From Funneliformis mosseae (taxonomy: Eukaryota; Glomeromycota; Glomeromycetes; Glomerales; Glomeraceae), in NCBI GenBank assembly GCA_910592005.1, contig CAJVPP010000877.1, positions 1-25,096 of the forward strand: DNA of 25,096 bases, read 5' to 3'. The position numbers and the translations under genes are program-made. Shown here piece after piece: positions 2,200 through 14,658 of this stretch. Under the pieces are notes generated by a model that was not told the DNA's origin, did no database searches, and was given only the letters and a program-made list of their open reading frames with translations. Position 1 is the first letter of the stretch. Every line of letters begins with the position of its first letter.

Positions 2200-2616
2200 A
2201 CTTCTATATAAACCGTTAACCTATGCTTTTCCATTTTAAAAATTCTTGACGAAAGTTGATAAAAAATAATGCGAGACAAATGGATGAAAATATTAAATTG
2301 AGCAATCTAAAGACTGATGGTTTAAAAAGTGAAGGAAAAAAAAGAGAAATATATTACACAGCACTACAATATAGAATGCCGTAAAAATTTTTTAAATGTT
2401 ATTTACAATTAATGAGGTGAGTGAAAGGCCGCACGATTTTTTAACGTATAAAAAATAGAGGGTTTATATATTCCTAGAGAAAAAAATTCAAAGGAGGCTT
2501 TTCCTATCTAGGGAATGATCAAAGTTGATAAACAAAATATCAAAAAAAAAATTTATTATATAATATACAGTATAAATTGCTGATCATCGATTATTTCAAT
2601 TGAAGCAGCTGTTCAT
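2200..2616. other. hAT 5' non-coding region
   Basis: This lies between the transposase start and the subterminal repeats. I see no reading frame or RNA structure in it. It is presumably the transposase promoter and leader. Confidence 0.4.
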
Positions 2617-2699
2617 GTCCAATAATCCTTGTCCACTGGAATGGACTGTCCAGTCCAATAGAGTTCTATTGGACTGGTCCAATCTAATGCCCAACACTG
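2617..2699. repeat. hAT terminal and subterminal palindromes
   Basis: The stretch holds a near-perfect hairpin, CCAGTCCAATAG (2650-2661), loop AGTT, CTATTGGACTGG (2666-2677). An overlapping smaller palindrome is TGGACTG (2642-2648) with CAGTCCA (2651-2657). Short repeated TTGGAC motifs are what hAT transposases usually bind near element ends. The terminal TGCCCAACACTG is at 2688-2699. Confidence 0.65.
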
Positions 2700-2700
2700 G

Positions 2701-4041
2701 GTACAACAGATTCGCATTTATCCCAACTAGCAGGAGTTGCTAAAACTCAAAAGATAGATGGGAATAGTATCATGAACATACAATTGGTATCTTACCGTGA
2801 TTGTAAAAAAGGTATTAAACAAAAAAAGAAGGATCTATGCGCATTATATTAAAACGCCAAAAACTTTAATGATATCAAACTCAAATGGATCCTCAAAACT
2901 TCATATGACATTTGTGATGAAGCAATGAATGATTTGCTTAAAGGATATTCTTCCAATATTGCTACTAATCGTAAAAATTTTAAGATGAAGTTCCATTCCA
3001 AAAAGAATTCTCAACAGTCTATCACAGTCTTATCAAAGCATTGGGGTAAATCTCGTGGTGAATATTCATTTCTTCCTAAAATCAAGTCATCAGAATCTCT
3101 TCTAAAAAAACTTGAATATGATAGCCGTCTTGTTATGAATTGGCTTGGTGAATATTATCTTTGTATACTCAGACCACTTGAAATATAGGCTGAAAATCAA
3201 GGTCCTATATTTCAAAAGGTTTTTATCTATTTTTTTTTTTATTATTTTTATTATCTATTAAATCAAAACTTCAATTAATTTTATATTTAATAATTTAATA
3301 GGAAGGATCAGGAGTGATTTCTTTGGATCCAGGTGTACGTACATTTATGACCGGTTATGATCCAAGTGGAATGGCTATTGAATGGGGCAAAAATGACATT
3401 GACCGAGTTTACAGATTATGTCATGCATATAACAAACTCCAAAGCAAGCGTGATCAAATTCATGGAAAAAAAAATAAGCGAAAACGTTACAGGTAAATTT
3501 ATTAATCAATTAATTATAATATTTATTTATAATTTAATGTATTTATGACTTTGATTGTAGATTACGTCGTATTATGTTACGAATTTATAAGAAAATCCAC
3601 TGTCTTGTGAATGATTGTCATTATAAGCTTGCTAAATGGCTTTGTGAAAATTATCGTATAATATTACTACCCGAATTTCGCACTCAAGGAATGGTCCGAC
3701 GTGGGCAACAACGCATTGGTTCCAAGACTGCTCGAGCCATGTGTACATGGTCACATTTTCGCTTTCGACAACATTTGATCCATAAGTCACGTGAGTAGTC
3801 ATGGTGCCAAGTCGTAATGTGTACAGAAGAATACACAAGCAAAACTTGCGGATTCTGTGGCTATATTCAATAAAAACTAGGTGGATCCAAAGAATTTTGC
3901 TGCCCCCAATGTAAAATTAATCTTGATAGAGATATAAATGGTGCTCGTAATATTCTCCTACGATATCTTACAAAAAAGGAAAAGGAGTCAGCTTAGGCTG
4001 GCGTGGGAGCCTATTCCCTTACAGGACTTGTTATTGCATAA
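2701..4041 (+). pseudogene. Fanzor / TnpB-like RNA-guided nuclease pseudogene with two introns
   Basis: Fanzors are eukaryotic relatives of transposon TnpB: RuvC nucleases guided by an omega RNA. The N-terminal frame reads QIRIYPN (2707-2727), then KR-stop-MGIV and TYN, which is the usual TnpB/Fanzor opening. Next come KHWGKSRGEYSFLPKIKS and LDPGVRTFMTGYDPSG with the RuvC-I Asp at 3326. LLPEF holds the RuvC-II Glu (3673). The zinc finger is CGFC (3847-3858) with CPQC (3901-3912), and DRDINGARNILL is RuvC-III (3925 on). Introns 3219-3301 and 3493-3560 are GT-AG, and splicing joins the frames exactly. Stops at 2728, 2755, 2773, 2850, 3186, 3796 and 3871, plus a frameshift at about 2776-2790, show it is dead. 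TAG at 3994 may be the real end, but the frame stays protein-like (AGVGAYSLTGLVIA) to TAA at 4039-4041. The 5' end is cut by the hAT element. Confidence 0.85.
3994..4013 (+). ncRNA. Hairpin at Fanzor 3' end, possible omega-RNA scaffold piece
   Basis: TAGGCT (3994-3999) pairs with AGCCTA (4008-4013) around the loop GGCGTGGG. It sits at the 3' end of the nuclease reading frame in a G+C-rich patch. In TnpB and Fanzor loci the guide RNA scaffold usually overlaps or follows the 3' end of the gene. The placement is suggestive only: the same bases also read as plausible protein, and a 6-bp stem can arise by chance. Confidence 0.2.
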
Positions 4042-4305: not shown

Positions 4306-5830
4306 TTATTTTGGTGTTCTAGTTAAGTTGAATTCGGGAGTGCTTTCTACACATAAATTCCTCCTTTTACTTCTTACATTAAATAAATTTAAAGCTTTGA
4401 TATTTTCTTCAGTTTTTTTTAATTGTCTCTACAAAAATTGAATTAGTTATGCATTTATAAATTGTTAATTAATAATGATAGAATAAGTGAACATACTTCT
4501 AATTCTTTAAAGATACAATATAAATCTTCAAAAAGTCCACATTCATTCTCACAAGATGGTAGAGTACCTTTATCGACCAACCCAAATAGATAGGTACTAT
4601 TGCCTTCCCATTTTAACGCATAAACATTTATTTCAAGTCCTGCATTAAGAACAATTACATAAGTTATCAATAAAAGTGTGAAGTGCCTTTAAAATAAACA
4701 TACCATGTTGAGTCCAACCATATAAAACCACAGATTTTCGCTGATCATCATTGAGATTCCGCCATTTTTTAATTATTGAGTTGAGAATCTCTCAACATTA
4801 CGGACAATTTTATTTTGTCAAAAAAACGTTTCTTTCTTGTCGCAGCAGGAAGACCAAAAGGACCTAATCCACCAGAAACTTCCCCAAATAAAACTTCAAC
4901 CTTGAATGACGTCTCTTTAAGGTTACCAATCATATCTACTTTTCTACCAATTCTATCTTTTTGAAATGGGTTAGCGTCTTCATTTTGTGCTTCTTTTGTT
5001 GAATATGATTGAATTTCGCCCCTATAAATAAAAGACATAATTTTCATTTAATATTTTTTACATAAAATTGATGCAAAGTAACTTACCATCTATCTATTAA
5101 AAAAATCATTATTGATAACAGCACGGTAAAAAGGATAGATTGTTGTCATTTTGAGAACTTCTTCAGTTACACTTCCTTTAAGAACATCAATGTTTGCAAC
5201 TCTAGATAATATATGAAAGTAAAAAATTATCACAGAATTTTTGTAGATGAATTAACATTAAACCATTGATACTTACATATATTGAATGTTAGCATTAAAT
5301 TTTTTATTTTCATTACTTAAATTACTTAAATTAATACTACAATTGCTGTTGAAGTAATCCTGAATAGTTGACGGAGTTGACTCTGGCTTCCATTGAATTA
5401 CATTTGAAAATTCTTTTGACAAATACTTTAACATGTCATCATTAATTTCTTTACAATTAAAAAGTGATTCCTTTGTTAGGTCAATAATTCCCCAATACCC
5501 AGGCCTATAAATATTATAAGCAATATATTAAGTAATCAGGATAATGTCATGTAAAAATTATTGCAAAACTTACGTGACTATTCTTTTTGTTTTAGAGATT
5601 TTTGACCTGTACAAATCGAAGCTTCCTTTTATTTCTTCACTGGTATAAGAAGACTTCGTAGCATAAATATTTAACATTACTTCATCGCTCAGTGTTTGAT
5701 CATCAATTGTTGAAATAATATTTCTTTCGTTCCCTTCTTCAAATAAGTAATTTGCTTCCACCTCTTGTAACTCTTCAACATCTTCATAAGGTCGTTTTCT
5801 TTTTCCGTCCTTTTTATCGAAAATAAACAT
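4306..5830 (-). pseudogene. Six-exon unknown gene, two single-base frameshifts
   Basis: I do not recognise the function. The reading frame runs from MFIFDKKDGKRKRPYED (5830) through exons 5830-5574, 5504-5277, 5201-5087, 5021-4704, 4639-4497 and 4428-4306, ending NLTRTPK and TAA. All five introns are 64-75 bp with GTA...AG ends, and each junction keeps frame. Notable segments are GEIQSYSTKEAQNEDANPFQ, IGRKVDMIGNLKET, FGEVSGGLGPFGLPAATRKK, VVLYGWTQHGLEINVYALKW and FGLVDKGTLPSCE. I believe this resembles a large uncharacterised protein family of mycorrhizal fungi, but from memory only. Two breaks occur: an extra T in the T7 run at 5099-5105 (frame resumes as DRWGEIQS) and one extra base at about 4765-4776 beside an A6 run (frame resumes as KKWRNLNDDQRKS). 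Both sit at homopolymers, so sequencing error is as likely as real decay. It could be the 3' part of the locus starting at 6607. Confidence 0.6.
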
Positions 5831-5879
5831 AAATATACCAAATAATGTGTCAGAGTTGATGTTACTATCTATAATATAA

Positions 5880-6607
5880 TTACTTTATTCCTGTTTCTGC
5901 GGGTTGAGGCACTGAAGACGTCGTTTGCATTATTGTATTCTAAATAAGAAATAACCAATAAAATATATAATCGAAATGATTAACTCAAAACTTTTGCAGA
6001 AATTGACTTAAATTACTACTTACATCATTATCTAAACAAATTGAGACTTTATTTGAAACAAATGCTTCTCTAGATTGCTGCTCTGTTTGCTAAAGGTAAT
6101 TTAAAGGTGAACATTGATAAATTTATTAAATGACCACTTAATAATCACATACATGGTAAATATCTTTAATAGTAGATCCAAGCCTTAACTGCATTTGCGA
6201 GCTAAGGTAACGACTTAATACAAATTCTGTGCTTGAATCTAGTTTTTCGAAAGGCTAAAAAGAGTATTCACAATAAATCATATTCTTTGAGTTGAACACT
6301 TTATCTGTTCCAATATAAACAACCATGTTAATACCTGATAATCAATCAACCTTTTAATAAAGCTTCTATAAAATATATCTATGTCTTTTCTTGATCCTAA
6401 TAAATTCAATGAATCGATCCATGCTTGTTCTATATCTCCTACAGAGTTCACGGGAATTTTCAACAAAATTACTTGCAACACAAATTGCTGATAGGACCAG
6501 TCTTTTATGTTTATATTTGCTAAAGCTGGGTGTATATCAGCTGGTAGCGTATAAGACCCCATATTTGTATCCTCGATAATTAATTGTGGACGCGATTTCG
6601 ATGCCAT
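5880..6607 (-). CDS. Four-exon unknown protein, 166 aa, possibly 5' part of next gene
   Basis: I do not recognise it. ATG at 6605-6607 begins MASKSRPQLIIEDTNMGSYT. Exons are 6607-6335, 6254-6153, 6089-6024 and 5939-5880; introns of 80, 63 and 84 bp have GT-AG ends. All three introns are phase 0, and the spliced frame is free of stops for 165 codons until TAA at 5880-5882. No membrane segment or known motif stands out; the first exon is hydrophobic-amphipathic (NIKDWSYQQFVLQVILLKIP). The next reading frame downstream starts only 50 bases later on the same strand. Both could therefore be one gene joined by an intron from GTAATT at 5884 to AAAAG at about 5819, but that join gives the wrong frame as sequenced. 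The clean splicing argues for a real gene at least in the recent past. Confidence 0.6.
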
Positions 6608-7365
6608 TTTTCTAGACTACGCGTAAATTAGCACTATATCGTTATCATACGCAACTGTGATTTGCCGTGTAAAATCTACGTACACAATGTGCACATGAGC
6701 ACATCGAAAATTTTTGTGTACAAATGACATCACATTTGTGCACAGTAATAACGCGTCACATATCGACGCACATATTGCTTTATGATGCAAAACTCCTCTT
6801 TTATAGTTTTGAAGACTTGGACAACTGGATTAACTGACTTAAGTATGTAGAAGAGAGTTGGTATCATATCTTTTCGATTATTTAATAATGTACATATTAT
6901 TTTTAGAACCAATCGTTCTAACGCCTCAACATCGTTTTAATGTTAAATCAATCGTTTCCGACCAAGTGTTTTTGACATGCAAGACATTGAAATTGCTAAA
7001 AGCTCATTACTCTCAGTCGTAATTTCTTAAATATATTTATAAAAGTTATGCCTTTATTAATGTCTTTAAAGCCTTTATCAAACAAATTTTACGTTACCTT
7101 CTTATATTTTATAACATTATATTAACGTTTCATTTTTTTCTTTATGTTGTAGGTCCTTAAATGAAATATTAAAACATGGTACTTTTTCTATATAATTAAT
7201 TCCGTATATTTAAAGTTTCTTTATCCCAACTTATTTAAATATAGGTTTTTATCTTAACAGTTAACATTAATATTACACATAGATTTGCTGTCTCGAAAAA
7301 TTAGGAGCAATGAAACAAGAAAAATCACTGTTGAATATGTGTTTTTATTTAGCACATATTCAGCT
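6608..7365. promoter_or_regulatory. Upstream region of the minus-strand gene with palindromes
   Basis: No reading frame is convincing here. At 6715-6744, TGTGTACAAATG and CATTTGTGCACA form a 12-bp inverted repeat with one mismatch and a 6-base spacer, about 110 bp upstream of the start codon at 6607. GTGCAC also occurs at 6690-6695. This could be a promoter element of that gene, but it is unproven. The remainder to 7365 shows nothing clear. Confidence 0.3.
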
Positions 7366-7411
7366 CAGTTCTGTTACCTCCTGCGGCCATGTGGCGAGGA
7401 GACCAGAACTG
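7366..7411 (+). repeat. Array hairpin 1
   Basis: Outer stem CAGTTCTG (7366-7373) pairs with CAGAACTG (7404-7411) over 8 bp. An internal loop of 4 and 2 bases follows, then CTCCT (7378-7382) pairs with AGGAG (7397-7401). The apex is the shared core. This is the strongest of the five: 13 Watson-Crick pairs outside the core. Confidence 0.75.
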
Positions 7412-7422
7412 CACACTCATGT

Positions 7423-7450
7423 GCTATATGCGGCCATGTGGCGGTATAGT
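7423..7450 (+). repeat. Array hairpin 2
   Basis: GCTATAT (7423-7429) pairs with GTATAGT (7444-7450): five Watson-Crick and two G-T pairs directly below the shared core. Weaker pairing further out (CAC 7412-7414 with GTG 7458-7460) is possible but would crowd hairpin 1. Confidence 0.6.
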
Positions 7451-7470
7451 TCCTCTGGTGTACTTTATGT

Positions 7471-7508
7471 CAAATGCTATTGCGGCCATGTGGCGGATAG
7501 CCTCTTTG
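7471..7508 (+). repeat. Array hairpin 3
   Basis: CAAA (7471-7474) pairs with TTTG (7505-7508). Across a 1 by 3 internal loop, GCTATT (7476-7481) pairs with GATAGC (7496-7501), closing with a T-G pair below the shared core. Confidence 0.6.
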
Positions 7509-7531
7509 TAATAAAGTCAGACAGGTAAGAC

Positions 7532-7567
7532 GGAACAACGCTGCGGCCATGTGGCGAGCTGAGTTCT
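7532..7567 (+). repeat. Array hairpin 4
   Basis: GGAAC (7532-7536) pairs with GTTCT (7563-7567), and GCT (7540-7542) with AGC (7557-7559). The small internal loop between them can hold one more C-G pair (7539 with 7561). The shared core is the apex. Confidence 0.6.
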
Positions 7568-7570
7568 AAG

Positions 7571-7621
7571 ACAGTTTTTAATTTGTTATGCGGCCATGTG
7601 GCGGTAACTTATTGGAACTGT
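7571..7621 (+). repeat. Array hairpin 5
   Basis: ACAG (7571-7574) pairs with CTGT (7618-7621). After a bulged T, TTTTAAT (7576-7582) pairs with ATTGGAA (7611-7617) including two T-G pairs. Across a 2 by 2 T-T loop, GTTAT (7585-7589) pairs with GTAAC (7604-7608). About 16 pairs lie outside the core. Confidence 0.7.
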
Positions 7622-8390
7622 GGTTCTTTTATTTGTTAAAATTCAAAAACATTAATTAAAGACATGTTTAGTTCCACCCTCAATAGGTTTATCTTATGGT
7701 ATATATTATTTGGATTATTTATTATCAACGCAATGCAATAATTTATATCAGCATATCAACATACACTATTGTGAAATGCAGAAATAAAAATTTAAACTCC
7801 TTCGCTCTTACTCCTATTATCGTTTATATTATTTCGTGATTAAGTTTACATAAAAGTTAAGTATAATTTTGGTGCACTTTATTTTTTATAAAATAAATGT
7901 TATAGAATACTTATTATAGCTTCCTCTCTTTAAGTCATTGATGGAAGGTGTAATCCCAATCTGAGGTAATTGGAAACTGCTTTAACTCCAGGATCCAGCT
8001 AGGGTAGAGTTTGATCAATCCGATAAGTGTTAGGGTTTGATTAAATTGGTACAGTTTTATTCATTGTGTTACTTAATTTAGTAGGAAGTACTAACTCAAA
8101 AATATACTTATCAAAATACCTTTTTTTTGATTTTGCTGCTATAAAATTCGGGCTCTAGATCTGATATCAACTATTTCAGAATTTGCTAATTCTAAATACC
8201 AAATACCAAACAAATGAGAAAAATGTAAGACACATGAATCATTTGGTAATTTCAGTTTATAGAAATTAATGATCAGCAGCAAGGTGGTGTATTACTTTCG
8301 GAATGTCATTGTATTTATCTTAATTTTATGAAATATCTAGTTTTTGATATTTCTTTTGCAATAAATGAATACATAATGATTTACTGAATA
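7622..8390. other. Intergenic, no gene seen
   Basis: No reading frame or RNA is supported. The stretch at about 7,950-8,060 is richer in G+C than its surroundings and contains related short words (GTTTGATCAATCC and GGTTTGATTAAATTGG). It may be the end of a dispersed repeat, but I cannot define its borders. Confidence 0.3.
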
Positions 8391-8391
8391 T

Positions 8392-8511
8392 GAAAAAGCA
8401 ATAAATTTTTTACAAAATGGTTGTAATTGTGATTGTTCAAATAAAATTTTAAAAGAAAATTTTGCAAAATGCGAGAAAATTTTATCTAAATCAGAATAAG
8501 ATATATTTTTT
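8392..8511 (+). pseudogene. Short Cys-rich coding relic, probably transposon-derived
   Basis: The frame reads EKAINFLQNGCNCDCSNKIL, then KENFAKCEKILSKSE, a TAA at 8497-8499, and DIFF. A Gly-Cys-x-Cys-x-Cys cluster followed by a Lys/Glu helix resembles the N-terminus of integrase- or transposase-associated proteins that I have seen in fungal and animal repeats. It is too short for a firm assignment. Confidence 0.3.
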
Positions 8512-8639
8512 AATAATTCAATTTAAAGAAAGTTTACACGGTGTTTGAACACTAATCTCGTTACCAATATTTTGTCCTTTAGTTTTTCTTAATTTCTTAA
8601 TGCTGGTAAAAGTACTATTCGTATCACGTGATCCATGTC

Positions 8640-10470
8640 CAAACGCCCCTTATACAAATAGAAATTGCTTTTAAAGTAATAGTAAATATCTTAACTGAAA
8701 AATTAGATCCAATAAAAAATATTTTTATCATTAAGATTATAATATATCACATTATTAAAAAATATATTAAAAGTATTAGAAATCACTTAATAAATAATAA
8801 ATTAATTTCAAGAATTTATGATAATATAAAAAGAATATTATATAAAAACTAAAATTATAATAGATAAAAATGTTGCAAAAGCAGTTAAAAATTTTTTGAA
8901 AAATTATGTTGAATTTCATAAATTATTAAGTTCTAGTAAAAATATTAACTGAATTATCCAATTACTTATCCAATTACTTATATTTTTACTAATTAAACTA
9001 GCTATAAATCAGTTTATTGTAACTTTTTTGCAAGTCTTAAATAATGTAACATATTAAATTTATTAAAATATATATTTTACAAGTTGTAATATCAATTAAT
9101 ATCTTATATTTAAATTATAAGCTTAAAAATAAAAAACAAATTTATATGATATTTGCTAATATTTTTAAAATATAATAACTATAAAAAGAAAGATGCAAAA
9201 GATTTACTAATAAAATATAAAAAACATTTGACTAAGATTAAGTTAAAAGAAATTATTATAATCAGAATATTAAATTAATAGAATAATAAAGAAAATTGAT
9301 AAATGACAATTATCTTGTAATAGAAGATAAAACTGATATTATAATGTTAATACTATTATTTACTAGTTATAATTAGATACAAAATATTTATATTTTATAT
9401 TCTATTAATAAATAAATAAAATTTACTATTTCAGTCTATGTAAAGTATATTTATTTAATATTCAAGATAAAATAATATATAAGCAAATTAATTTTGTTTT
9501 AACAAAAATAAAATAACAGACAAAGATTTTAATAATTAAGTATAATTTTTAATGAAATTAATAGATTAAATAAAGTAAAAAGCATTTAAAATTACTTTTG
9601 TAATATAAATAATTAAAATAAAAATAATGTTACTATTTGATTTTACTTATATTTAGTGAATTATGATTATTATAAAAGTGTTAAATTAAATTTTATAATA
9701 TCTGAATATAATAAATTCAAATATAAATAGCAGTTTTAATTTAATTAAAAAGCTTTATCAAAATGCAATAGTAGGTTATATAGATTATATTATTGAAATT
9801 ATAATAAGATTAATTATAATAAGATTAAATAAAATTTAGTATTATGTATGATGATAAGAAAGATTTTTAATATTTAAGAACTAGTCTAGCAAAAGTTGAG
9901 ATTCAACAAATTATGTAATTTCAAGAAAATCAAGTTTAAAATTATTGATTAATTTAGTAAATTATAATTTATTCTGTTATTTTTAAAGATTTTAAAATTA
10001 GTTTTTTATAAATTAAAATAAAATTTTACAAAGAATTTATTAAAAGCATTAGTTTTGCTTTAGTAAATTTATTTTATTTATTAAATATAATAATATAAAA
10101 ATACCAGTAATTATAAATTATGAAATATTATATTTTTTTAATATGTTATATATAAATTTTTTTATTTTCTAAAAATATAAAATTAAAATCTACAAAAATA
10201 AAGAAAAATATATTTAATAAAAGTTTTTAAATTTTTATTTAAAAAATAAATTTTATTAGAAAGCAAATTATTTTTATTAATTATCAATATTTAATTATAC
10301 TTGTTACTAATAAATTCAAGTATTTAAGTTTAAAAATAAAATTTTTAATAAAAGTAAAGAAAAAATATATAATTAAGATTATTATTAGGTAAAACTTAAA
10401 GATTAAAAAGATTTTGTAAGTTATCTAAATAGAAAAAATAAATTTAGCAAAATTATATTAAAATATAATT
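8640..10470. other. Extreme A+T region, no functional gene
   Basis: Base composition changes at about 8,640 from ordinary fungal A+T to very A+T-rich sequence that lasts to the window end. An open frame at 8628-8852 (plus; KLDPIKNIFIIK and similar) is low complexity and may be a relic or chance. Nothing else is recognisable up to 10,470. Confidence 0.5.
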
Positions 10471-13771: not shown

Positions 13772-14658
13772 AAAATGATTTATTTATTATTTATTTAAAT
13801 AATATTTTTATCACTCCAAATGAACGATGTTTTATTATTCTAATTAAATGATTCTTTTATTATTCATTTAGAATGATATTTTATTGTTTTAGTCAAACTA
13901 TTCTTTTATTATTCTTTTAGATTAATATTTTATTTCAATTGAATAATTCTTTTATTGTTTATTTAAAATGATACTTTTATCATTCCAATCAAATGATATT
14001 TATCATTCTTTTGAAATGATATTTTATCATTTCATTTGAATGATTCTTTTATCATTTTTTTTAAAATAATATTTATCATTCTATTTGAACAATTCTTTTA
14101 TTATTTATATAGAATGATATTTTATCATTCTGATTGAACGATTCTTTTATTATTTTAATCAAATAATATTTATCATTCTTTTGGAATGATATTTTATCAT
14201 TCTGATCAAATAATATTTATCATTTTGTTAAATGATATTTATTGTTCTTTAGAACAATATTTTATCATTTTGATCAAATGATATTTATCATTCTTTTAGA
14301 ACAATATTTTATTATTCTAATTGAATGATTCTTTTATCATTTTTTTGAAACAATTATCATTTTAATAGAATGATTCTTTTATTGTTCTTTTAAAATGATA
14401 TTTTTATCATTCTGATTGAATGATTCTTTTATCATTCTTTTGAAATGATATTTTATCATTTTAATCAAATGATTCTTTTATTATTCTTTTAGAATAATGT
14501 TTTTATTATTTTTTTGAAATGATATTTATTATTTTTTTAAAATTATGTTTTATCATTCTAATTGCATGATTTTTTTATCATTCTTTTGAAATAATGCTTT
14601 ATCGTTCTGATCAAACGATTCTTATATCATTCCAATTGAATAATATTTATCATTCTTT
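13772..14658. repeat. Array of roughly 35-40 short palindromes
   Basis: Units of about 20-25 bases follow one another, each a small hairpin of the form GAATGAT, 4-6 T-rich bases, ATCATTC, with linkers such as TGATC or TTTTG. A few units keep CG where most have TG or CA: GAACGAT at 13822, a GAACG ending at 14140, and ATCGTTC...AACGAT at 14601-14618. Others show ATTGTTC with GAACAAT (around 14,240). The founding unit was therefore probably GAACGAT...ATCGTTC. It lies between the left TIR and the transposase frame of the 5.2-kb transposon. Confidence 0.75.

Follow-up and report, generated by a model that had tools for sequence, protein, structure and literature searches.

Hairpin arrays with common apices on unrelated stems upstream of a gene family: a possible kind of gene-linked RNA

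Why should a short sequence recur five times without a single change, each time at the tip of a different hairpin? This question is posed by a locus in a 25,096-nucleotide stretch of DNA, the whole of which is referred to here as the window. The 15-mer TGCGGCCATGTGGCG is found in five exact copies in the 82-Mb genome, and all of them are located within window positions 7382-7603. Their spacing is 47, 52, 61 and 47 bases. The count of exact matches bears out the first-pass annotation, which had described an exact 15-mer repeated five times at intervals of 47-61. A whole-genome search found no core site with up to one mismatch elsewhere. With two mismatches allowed, the genome yielded 182 matches compared to 118 with a reversed control; because only 100 of the 182 were listed, further arrays may be missed. 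Table 1 summarizes the features of the locus. Two of them, the core-less stem-loop hp0 and the outer closing stem of the minimum free energy (MFE) fold, were absent from the first-pass annotation. The window had no Rfam match at the gathering score, and no tRNA was found in it. Other parts of the window carry ORF pieces with LDPGVRTF, LLPEF and MCTWSHFRFRQHL (2576-3798, + strand), which resemble a TnpB/Fanzor-type protein and had no Pfam match among the pieces scanned, remains resembling a hAT transposase (950-2194, - strand; one piece with a sub-threshold DUF659 match, E 0.057) and a tandem array of about 17 copies of a 49-base unit (13773-14656).

Table 1. The hairpin array and the neighbouring gene in the window
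Feature	Position	Strand	Core	Remarks
Neighbouring unassigned gene with several exons, 5' part	4766..6607	-		start codon at 6607; exon borders inferred
Whole array	7313..7645	+		ends pair in MFE fold (outer closing stem, single-sequence fold only)
hp0	7330..7364	+		stem-loop without core, 14 bp in window
hp1	7366..7411	+	7382-7396	register test
hp2	7413..7461	+	7429-7443	register test
hp3	7462..7517	+	7481-7495	register test
hp4	7532..7567	+	7542-7556	weakest stem; register and energy tests
hp5	7571..7621	+	7589-7603	register test

The five cores form the same apex. Each starts with a U paired with A or G, followed by a bulged G and by C-G and G-C pairs; above these lie another bulged purine and CC/GG, with AUNN as the loop of four bases. 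Below the apex, the arms of all five copies pair in one exact register, in which 20 of 25 positions are Watson-Crick pairs. Position 1/16 is U-A in two and U-G in three of the five copies. Watson-Crick pairs occur in 5/5 copies at positions 0/17 and -1/18, in 4/5 at -2/19 and -3/20 and in 2/5 at -4/21. The register was counted on ungapped positions, as gaps were misplaced by MAFFT when the five hairpins were aligned. A total of 20/25 was reached by only one of 120 arm permutations, namely the true assignment, and by none of 100,000 random flank sets or 100,000 arm shuffles. This confirms the proposal that the left flank complements the right flank in every copy, and chance complementarity of the flanks is ruled out. 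Folding energies against shuffled controls, a check suggested at the outset, gave significant results for the whole region and for hp1, hp3 and hp5, and not for hp2 and hp4 singly. The region folds with z = -4.30 on the + strand and -3.16 on the - strand; in a second shuffle run the array gave -4.77 and -2.99, respectively. Flank shuffles were at least as stable in fractions of 0.005 (hp1), 0.017 (hp3) and 0.017 (hp5). For hp2 and hp4, these fractions were 0.143 and 0.794, so neither hairpin is significant by energy alone. The energy sum of the true arm assignment ranked third among the 120 permutations.

The register stems also carry information on the strand. In the arrays of the window and of two other loci, C2479 and C3286 (see below), the register stems read on the + strand contain 69 Watson-Crick pairs, 13 G-U pairs, no A-C pair and three others. 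The chance of finding no A-C among 13 is about 0.012 by our own arithmetic. Composition explains part of this bias, because mispaired arms also yielded more G-U than A-C (116 vs 47). The excess of G-U over A-C favours an RNA of the + strand, which would be directed away from the neighbouring gene.

A DNA search of the genome found the window type of array at three further places, i.e. four in all. L010 (C471) is part of a duplication of window positions 7051-10226, with interruptions. Between 7051 and 8275, 143 sites are G/C in the window and show a transition to A/T in L010, compared to 10 in the opposite direction; since this loss spans the entire segment including the flanks, it does not single out the array. 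Between 8361 and 10226, the G/C loss of the window and L010 is even (78 to 66). The second copy, L011 (C2195), retains the array from about window position 7284 to 7590 and is truncated on both sides by high-copy repeats. L012 (C177) retains two cores, one of which is split by another element, and combines the left hp2 arm with the right hp5 arm. In addition, it shows a weak match to the 5' end of the neighbouring gene over 128 bp (71%, E 6e-10; the tblastn match comprises 13 residues, E 3.3). A foldback micro-element, one of the options considered at first, is not supported: The search found only these four array copies, one of them cut by repeats (L011) and one lying within a longer duplication (L010). 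The hp2 pair 7422/7451 is T-T in the window and A-T in both L010 and L011; the search for pair maintenance or covariation in these two decayed copies was negative. Two side observations concern the same copies. A composition border is located at window positions 8275-8361, left of which only L010 lost G/C and right of which both copies lost it equally; GC content falls across it from about 0.3 to 0.11-0.23. The element within the L012 core (L012:1510-1850) has inverted-repeat ends (GGGTTTCCG/CGGAAACCC) with TA on both sides.

The copies differ from each other in the loop. Its fourth base is T in 5/5 cores of the window and of L010, and A in 4/4 readable cores of L011 and 2/2 of L012. Two annotated ORFs extend this comparison. 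P0002 was found by searching with a mechanical ORF across the window array, and P0003 was found with P0002. Both are accidental translations of the same array type. P0002 aligns to the window ORF with 30/38 residues and P0003 with 41/51; P0002 repeats the hp1-hp3 block, and P0003 matches hp0 at the peptide level (LNMYFYLAHIQ vs LNMCFYLAHIQ in the window). Because the search of the genome itself returned no such copies, we infer that both come from other genomes. For P0002, ATAA is the single loop compatible with 6/6 cores, and for P0003, ATGA is the single loop compatible with 3/3, compared to ATGT in 5/5 cores of the window. Across arrays of the window type, the arms of hairpins 1-3 persist, and a loop change affects every core simultaneously. 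Hence, the core described as fixed in the first-pass annotation is constant inside one array, but its loop differs between arrays (ATGT/ATGA/ATAA). Within any one array the apices agree, and from one array to the next they change together.

Could the repeat encode a protein? A 72-aa ORF spans the first three cores, and both P0002 and P0003 are annotated as ORFs. However, the spacing is uneven, the cores differ in frame, and the ORF does not extend to hp4 and hp5. P0002 and P0003 translate hp3 in a frame that differs from that of the window ORF, and the loop change is equal in all frames. A protein-coding repeat, to which we assign next to no probability, is rejected on frames. Mutation without function, by which template switching would perfect the stems (quasi-palindrome correction) and short exchanges would homogenise the cores, appears rather unlikely. 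The cores do act as recombination points, as seen at the hp2/hp5 junction of L012 and in the hp1-hp3 block repeat of P0002, and the lack of pair maintenance in the decayed copies fits as well. By contrast, the pairs left by correction would be Watson-Crick, whereas G-U accounts for 13 of the 85 register pairs, and both the conservation of hairpins 1-3 between sources and the recurrence of arrays beside one gene family would be left unexplained.

This gene family is defined by the exon at 4766-5020 of the neighbouring gene. A genome search with the exon gave 20 rows corresponding to 19 loci, the window and 18 related ones. About 3 kb upstream of the family exon were examined at 18 loci; C1144, which starts at the gene, was left out. 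A repeat array is located upstream at 10 of the 18: the window, C2479, C2186, C1381, C115, C1887, C960, C3286, C1711 and C652. At six loci (C4116, C2419, C176, C2661, C304 and C128) no array was seen there, and two (C3019 and C1850) were set aside, as their repeats are nearer the exon and by their look probably coding. 11-mers in at least three copies were found at 9/18 family loci and 1/32 control loci, and 14-mers in at least two copies at 12/18 and 5/32, the controls being mostly regions around repeats and not gene upstream regions. Where the array can be placed relative to the start codon of the family gene, the distance is about 280 to 720 bp. The family has no Pfam match above cut-off and no relative in the PDB by sequence, and the predicted structure of its exon is of low confidence (pLDDT 59.8). 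RNA binding by the family protein is thus a guess.

The constant place upstream of family genes is what one would expect of cis-acting DNA, that is, a homotypic cluster of binding sites upstream of the neighbouring gene whose arms extrude as cruciforms or aid a dimeric factor. The exact 15-bp identity and the partly palindromic apices point in the same direction. However, a DNA site has no need of complementary, freely varying arms in one register, and the 13 G-U pairs against no A-C favour RNA from one strand, even with composition as a part of that bias. We consider such a DNA site unlikely.

The hairpin register is seen in the arrays of the window, C2479 and C3286. The C2479 array, which surfaced in the relaxed core search, comprises eight hairpins in two tandem blocks with 92-95% identity and is separated from the start of its family gene by about 280 bp. 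Its cores are CGGCCATTTGGCG, in one case CGGCCATTCGGCG and in two cases CAGACCATTAGGCG. The apical architecture is that of the window, and the stems are unrelated to the window stems. Over the eight hairpins, 39/40 register pairs are formed (20/20 in h1-h4 and 19/20 in h5-h8, each reached by 0/20,000 random sets), and the closing pair is U-A or U-G in 8/8. Between h4 and h8, a G-C to U-A double change keeps the pairing, as judged by eye; similar double changes are visible in unit 3 of C2186 and between units 1 and 2 of C115. The registers of the window and of C2479 support the view, already raised in the first-pass annotation, that a shared apex on differing but complementary stems indicates a selected fold. 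C3286 carries five copies of GTCTGTTCCAGTCAATTGGCG with three distinct arm sets only. C960 and C1711 have CCAAGAG in common and short stems, and the arrays of C1887, C1381 and C652 are known as repeats only. Folding of these arrays is uneven. On the + strand, z is -2.45 for C3286, -2.52 for C115, -2.08 for C1887, -0.92 for C652 and -0.85 for C1381, and C960 (0.34), C1711 (-0.30) and C2186 (0.12) fold no better than shuffles. C2479 reaches only -1.66 on the + strand and -1.88 on the - strand; C1381 and C652 have - strand values of -2.10 and -2.42, and z for the flanks lies between -1.72 and 2.18.

Searches with single apices located related arrays. The C2186 apex has one additional exact match on C249 and four at one mismatch (reversed-pattern controls gave 6 and 9). 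The C3286 apex is exact only at C3286 itself; of five sites at two mismatches, three make up an array on C501. This array comprises three exact copies of TCTGCTCCAGGCAATTGG and a fourth that is one base off, with stems such as CCTCG/CGAGG. C3286 carries TCTGTTCCAGTCAATTGG in 5/5 units, which differs from the C501 apex by two bases, each version being common to the exact copies of its array. Judged from these copies (5/5 vs three exact ones), the pair represents a second case of concerted apex change. Over the 3.9 kb of sequence read there, the gene beside the C501 array shows no family exon, and it has only an N-terminal stretch in common with the family: Its first exon resembles that of C2479 (15/41 residues, 36.6%, E 1.4e-5). 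The same gene (L117:2130-2639, +) has a different conserved-looking C-terminal part, GADKFQLIYVEGARP, and no Pfam match. Related hairpins are also present on C589, where the adjoining gene lacks the family exon and has a sub-threshold SAM match. This SAM-like ORF (L118:1754-2083, -; E 0.0096) lies about 500 bp from that array, whose apex is GACGTAGT.

Taken together, we give a probability of roughly 0.45 to the following reading: the array encodes an RNA of several hairpins, transcribed divergently from the gene, in which every apex is a copy of one binding site for a cognate partner, with the neighbouring protein as a candidate. The sequence pattern is observed; transcription, its strand, a protein as partner and the neighbour in this role are what we infer. 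The array would be a structured-RNA gene on the + strand, directed away from the neighbouring gene, and the same apex presented on its own stem in each hairpin would provide repeated docking sites for one partner. A protein would be the most likely partner, and the neighbouring gene may well encode it, a guess from the position of this gene and the private apices. Each locus would thereby encode a private RNA-protein pair. If recognition shifted, all apices of an array would have to follow, and the stems would need only to remain stems. Such a shift across the whole array would account for loops that agree inside an array and differ from one array to another. Of the options named in the first-pass annotation, protein-binding hairpins are still the best, as a prediction, and processed small RNAs become a lesser rival. 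A hairpin transcript cut by Dicer, which we regard as improbable, would be compatible with long hairpins in a probable fungus, and mi/milRNA loci reported in Rhizophagus and Gigaspora were often confirmed (PMC9757828). However, such precursors conserve the arm, and here the arms differ within an array and the apex is common.

If the apices are indeed binding sites, a bolder and doubtful extension is that each family member is paired with its own divergent hairpin-array RNA, and that the homogenised apex serves as a private tag that coevolves with the protein. This would amount to an RNA-based specificity or antidote system acting in conflict, self-recognition or autoregulation. If so, a eukaryotic gene family would be accompanied by RNA arrays whose locus-specific tips all switch together; this would offer a natural repeated experiment in RNA-protein recognition coevolution and assign a function to an orphan family. 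Should the proposed function be wrong, a mechanism would still be needed for a pattern in which unrelated, covarying stems carry identical apices that are homogenised inside each array and differ from those of other arrays. Two candidates are coevolution with a partner and exchange confined to about 15 bases. Nothing alike was found in the open literature.

Known systems share single traits with these arrays. Short identical repeats at similar spacing recall CRISPR, from which the window array differs in the unequal spacing of 47-61 and in the mutually complementary flanks of each repeat; a simple tandem repeat does not fit the array either. A search for prokaryotic and viral relatives with a two-core pattern gave 21 stretches from genome contigs and one viral stretch. 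These were rejected: All have a GC content of 0.47-0.74 and look by eye like coding sequence or direct repeats. P0002 had no relative among viral sequences. Mitochondrial repetitive hairpin elements and GC clusters are described as GC-rich hairpins in AT-rich DNA at which recombination occurs (PMC2800124). Both properties are found here, but the mitochondrial elements are dispersed, with conserved stems and variable loops, whereas each of our arrays combines differing stems with a common loop. In the MS2-type coat-protein operator, a four-base loop is followed two pairs further down by a bulged purine. The C2479 hairpins h3 and h7, with a bulged A and the loop AUUA, resemble it in shape only, as there is no coat protein and the hairpins form arrays of 5 to 8. 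CsrB and RsmZ are bacterial RNAs with GGA loops and a global target. One such RNA contains many hairpins, each with the same protein-binding loop motif (PMC4005645). In contrast, the loops across our arrays are of the AUNN type (AUGU, AUGA, AUAA, AUUU, AUUC and AUUA) without a GGA motif, and the apices are locus-specific and lie next to a gene family. In type III toxin-antitoxin systems, repeats and toxin are read from the same strand. Unlike in ToxIN, the putative RNA reading is divergent from the gene, as suggested by the G-U/A-C polarity, and its units, hairpins in a eukaryotic host, vary both in their arms and in length. In ToxIN, a multi-repeat RNA antitoxin binds its toxin, an endoribonuclease (PMC8860590). 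The likeness lies in a protein gene accompanied by its own array of RNA repeats, and a corresponding position upstream of the gene is occupied in the window and at nine further family loci. The arrays beside this gene family look like an undescribed kind of gene-linked RNA.
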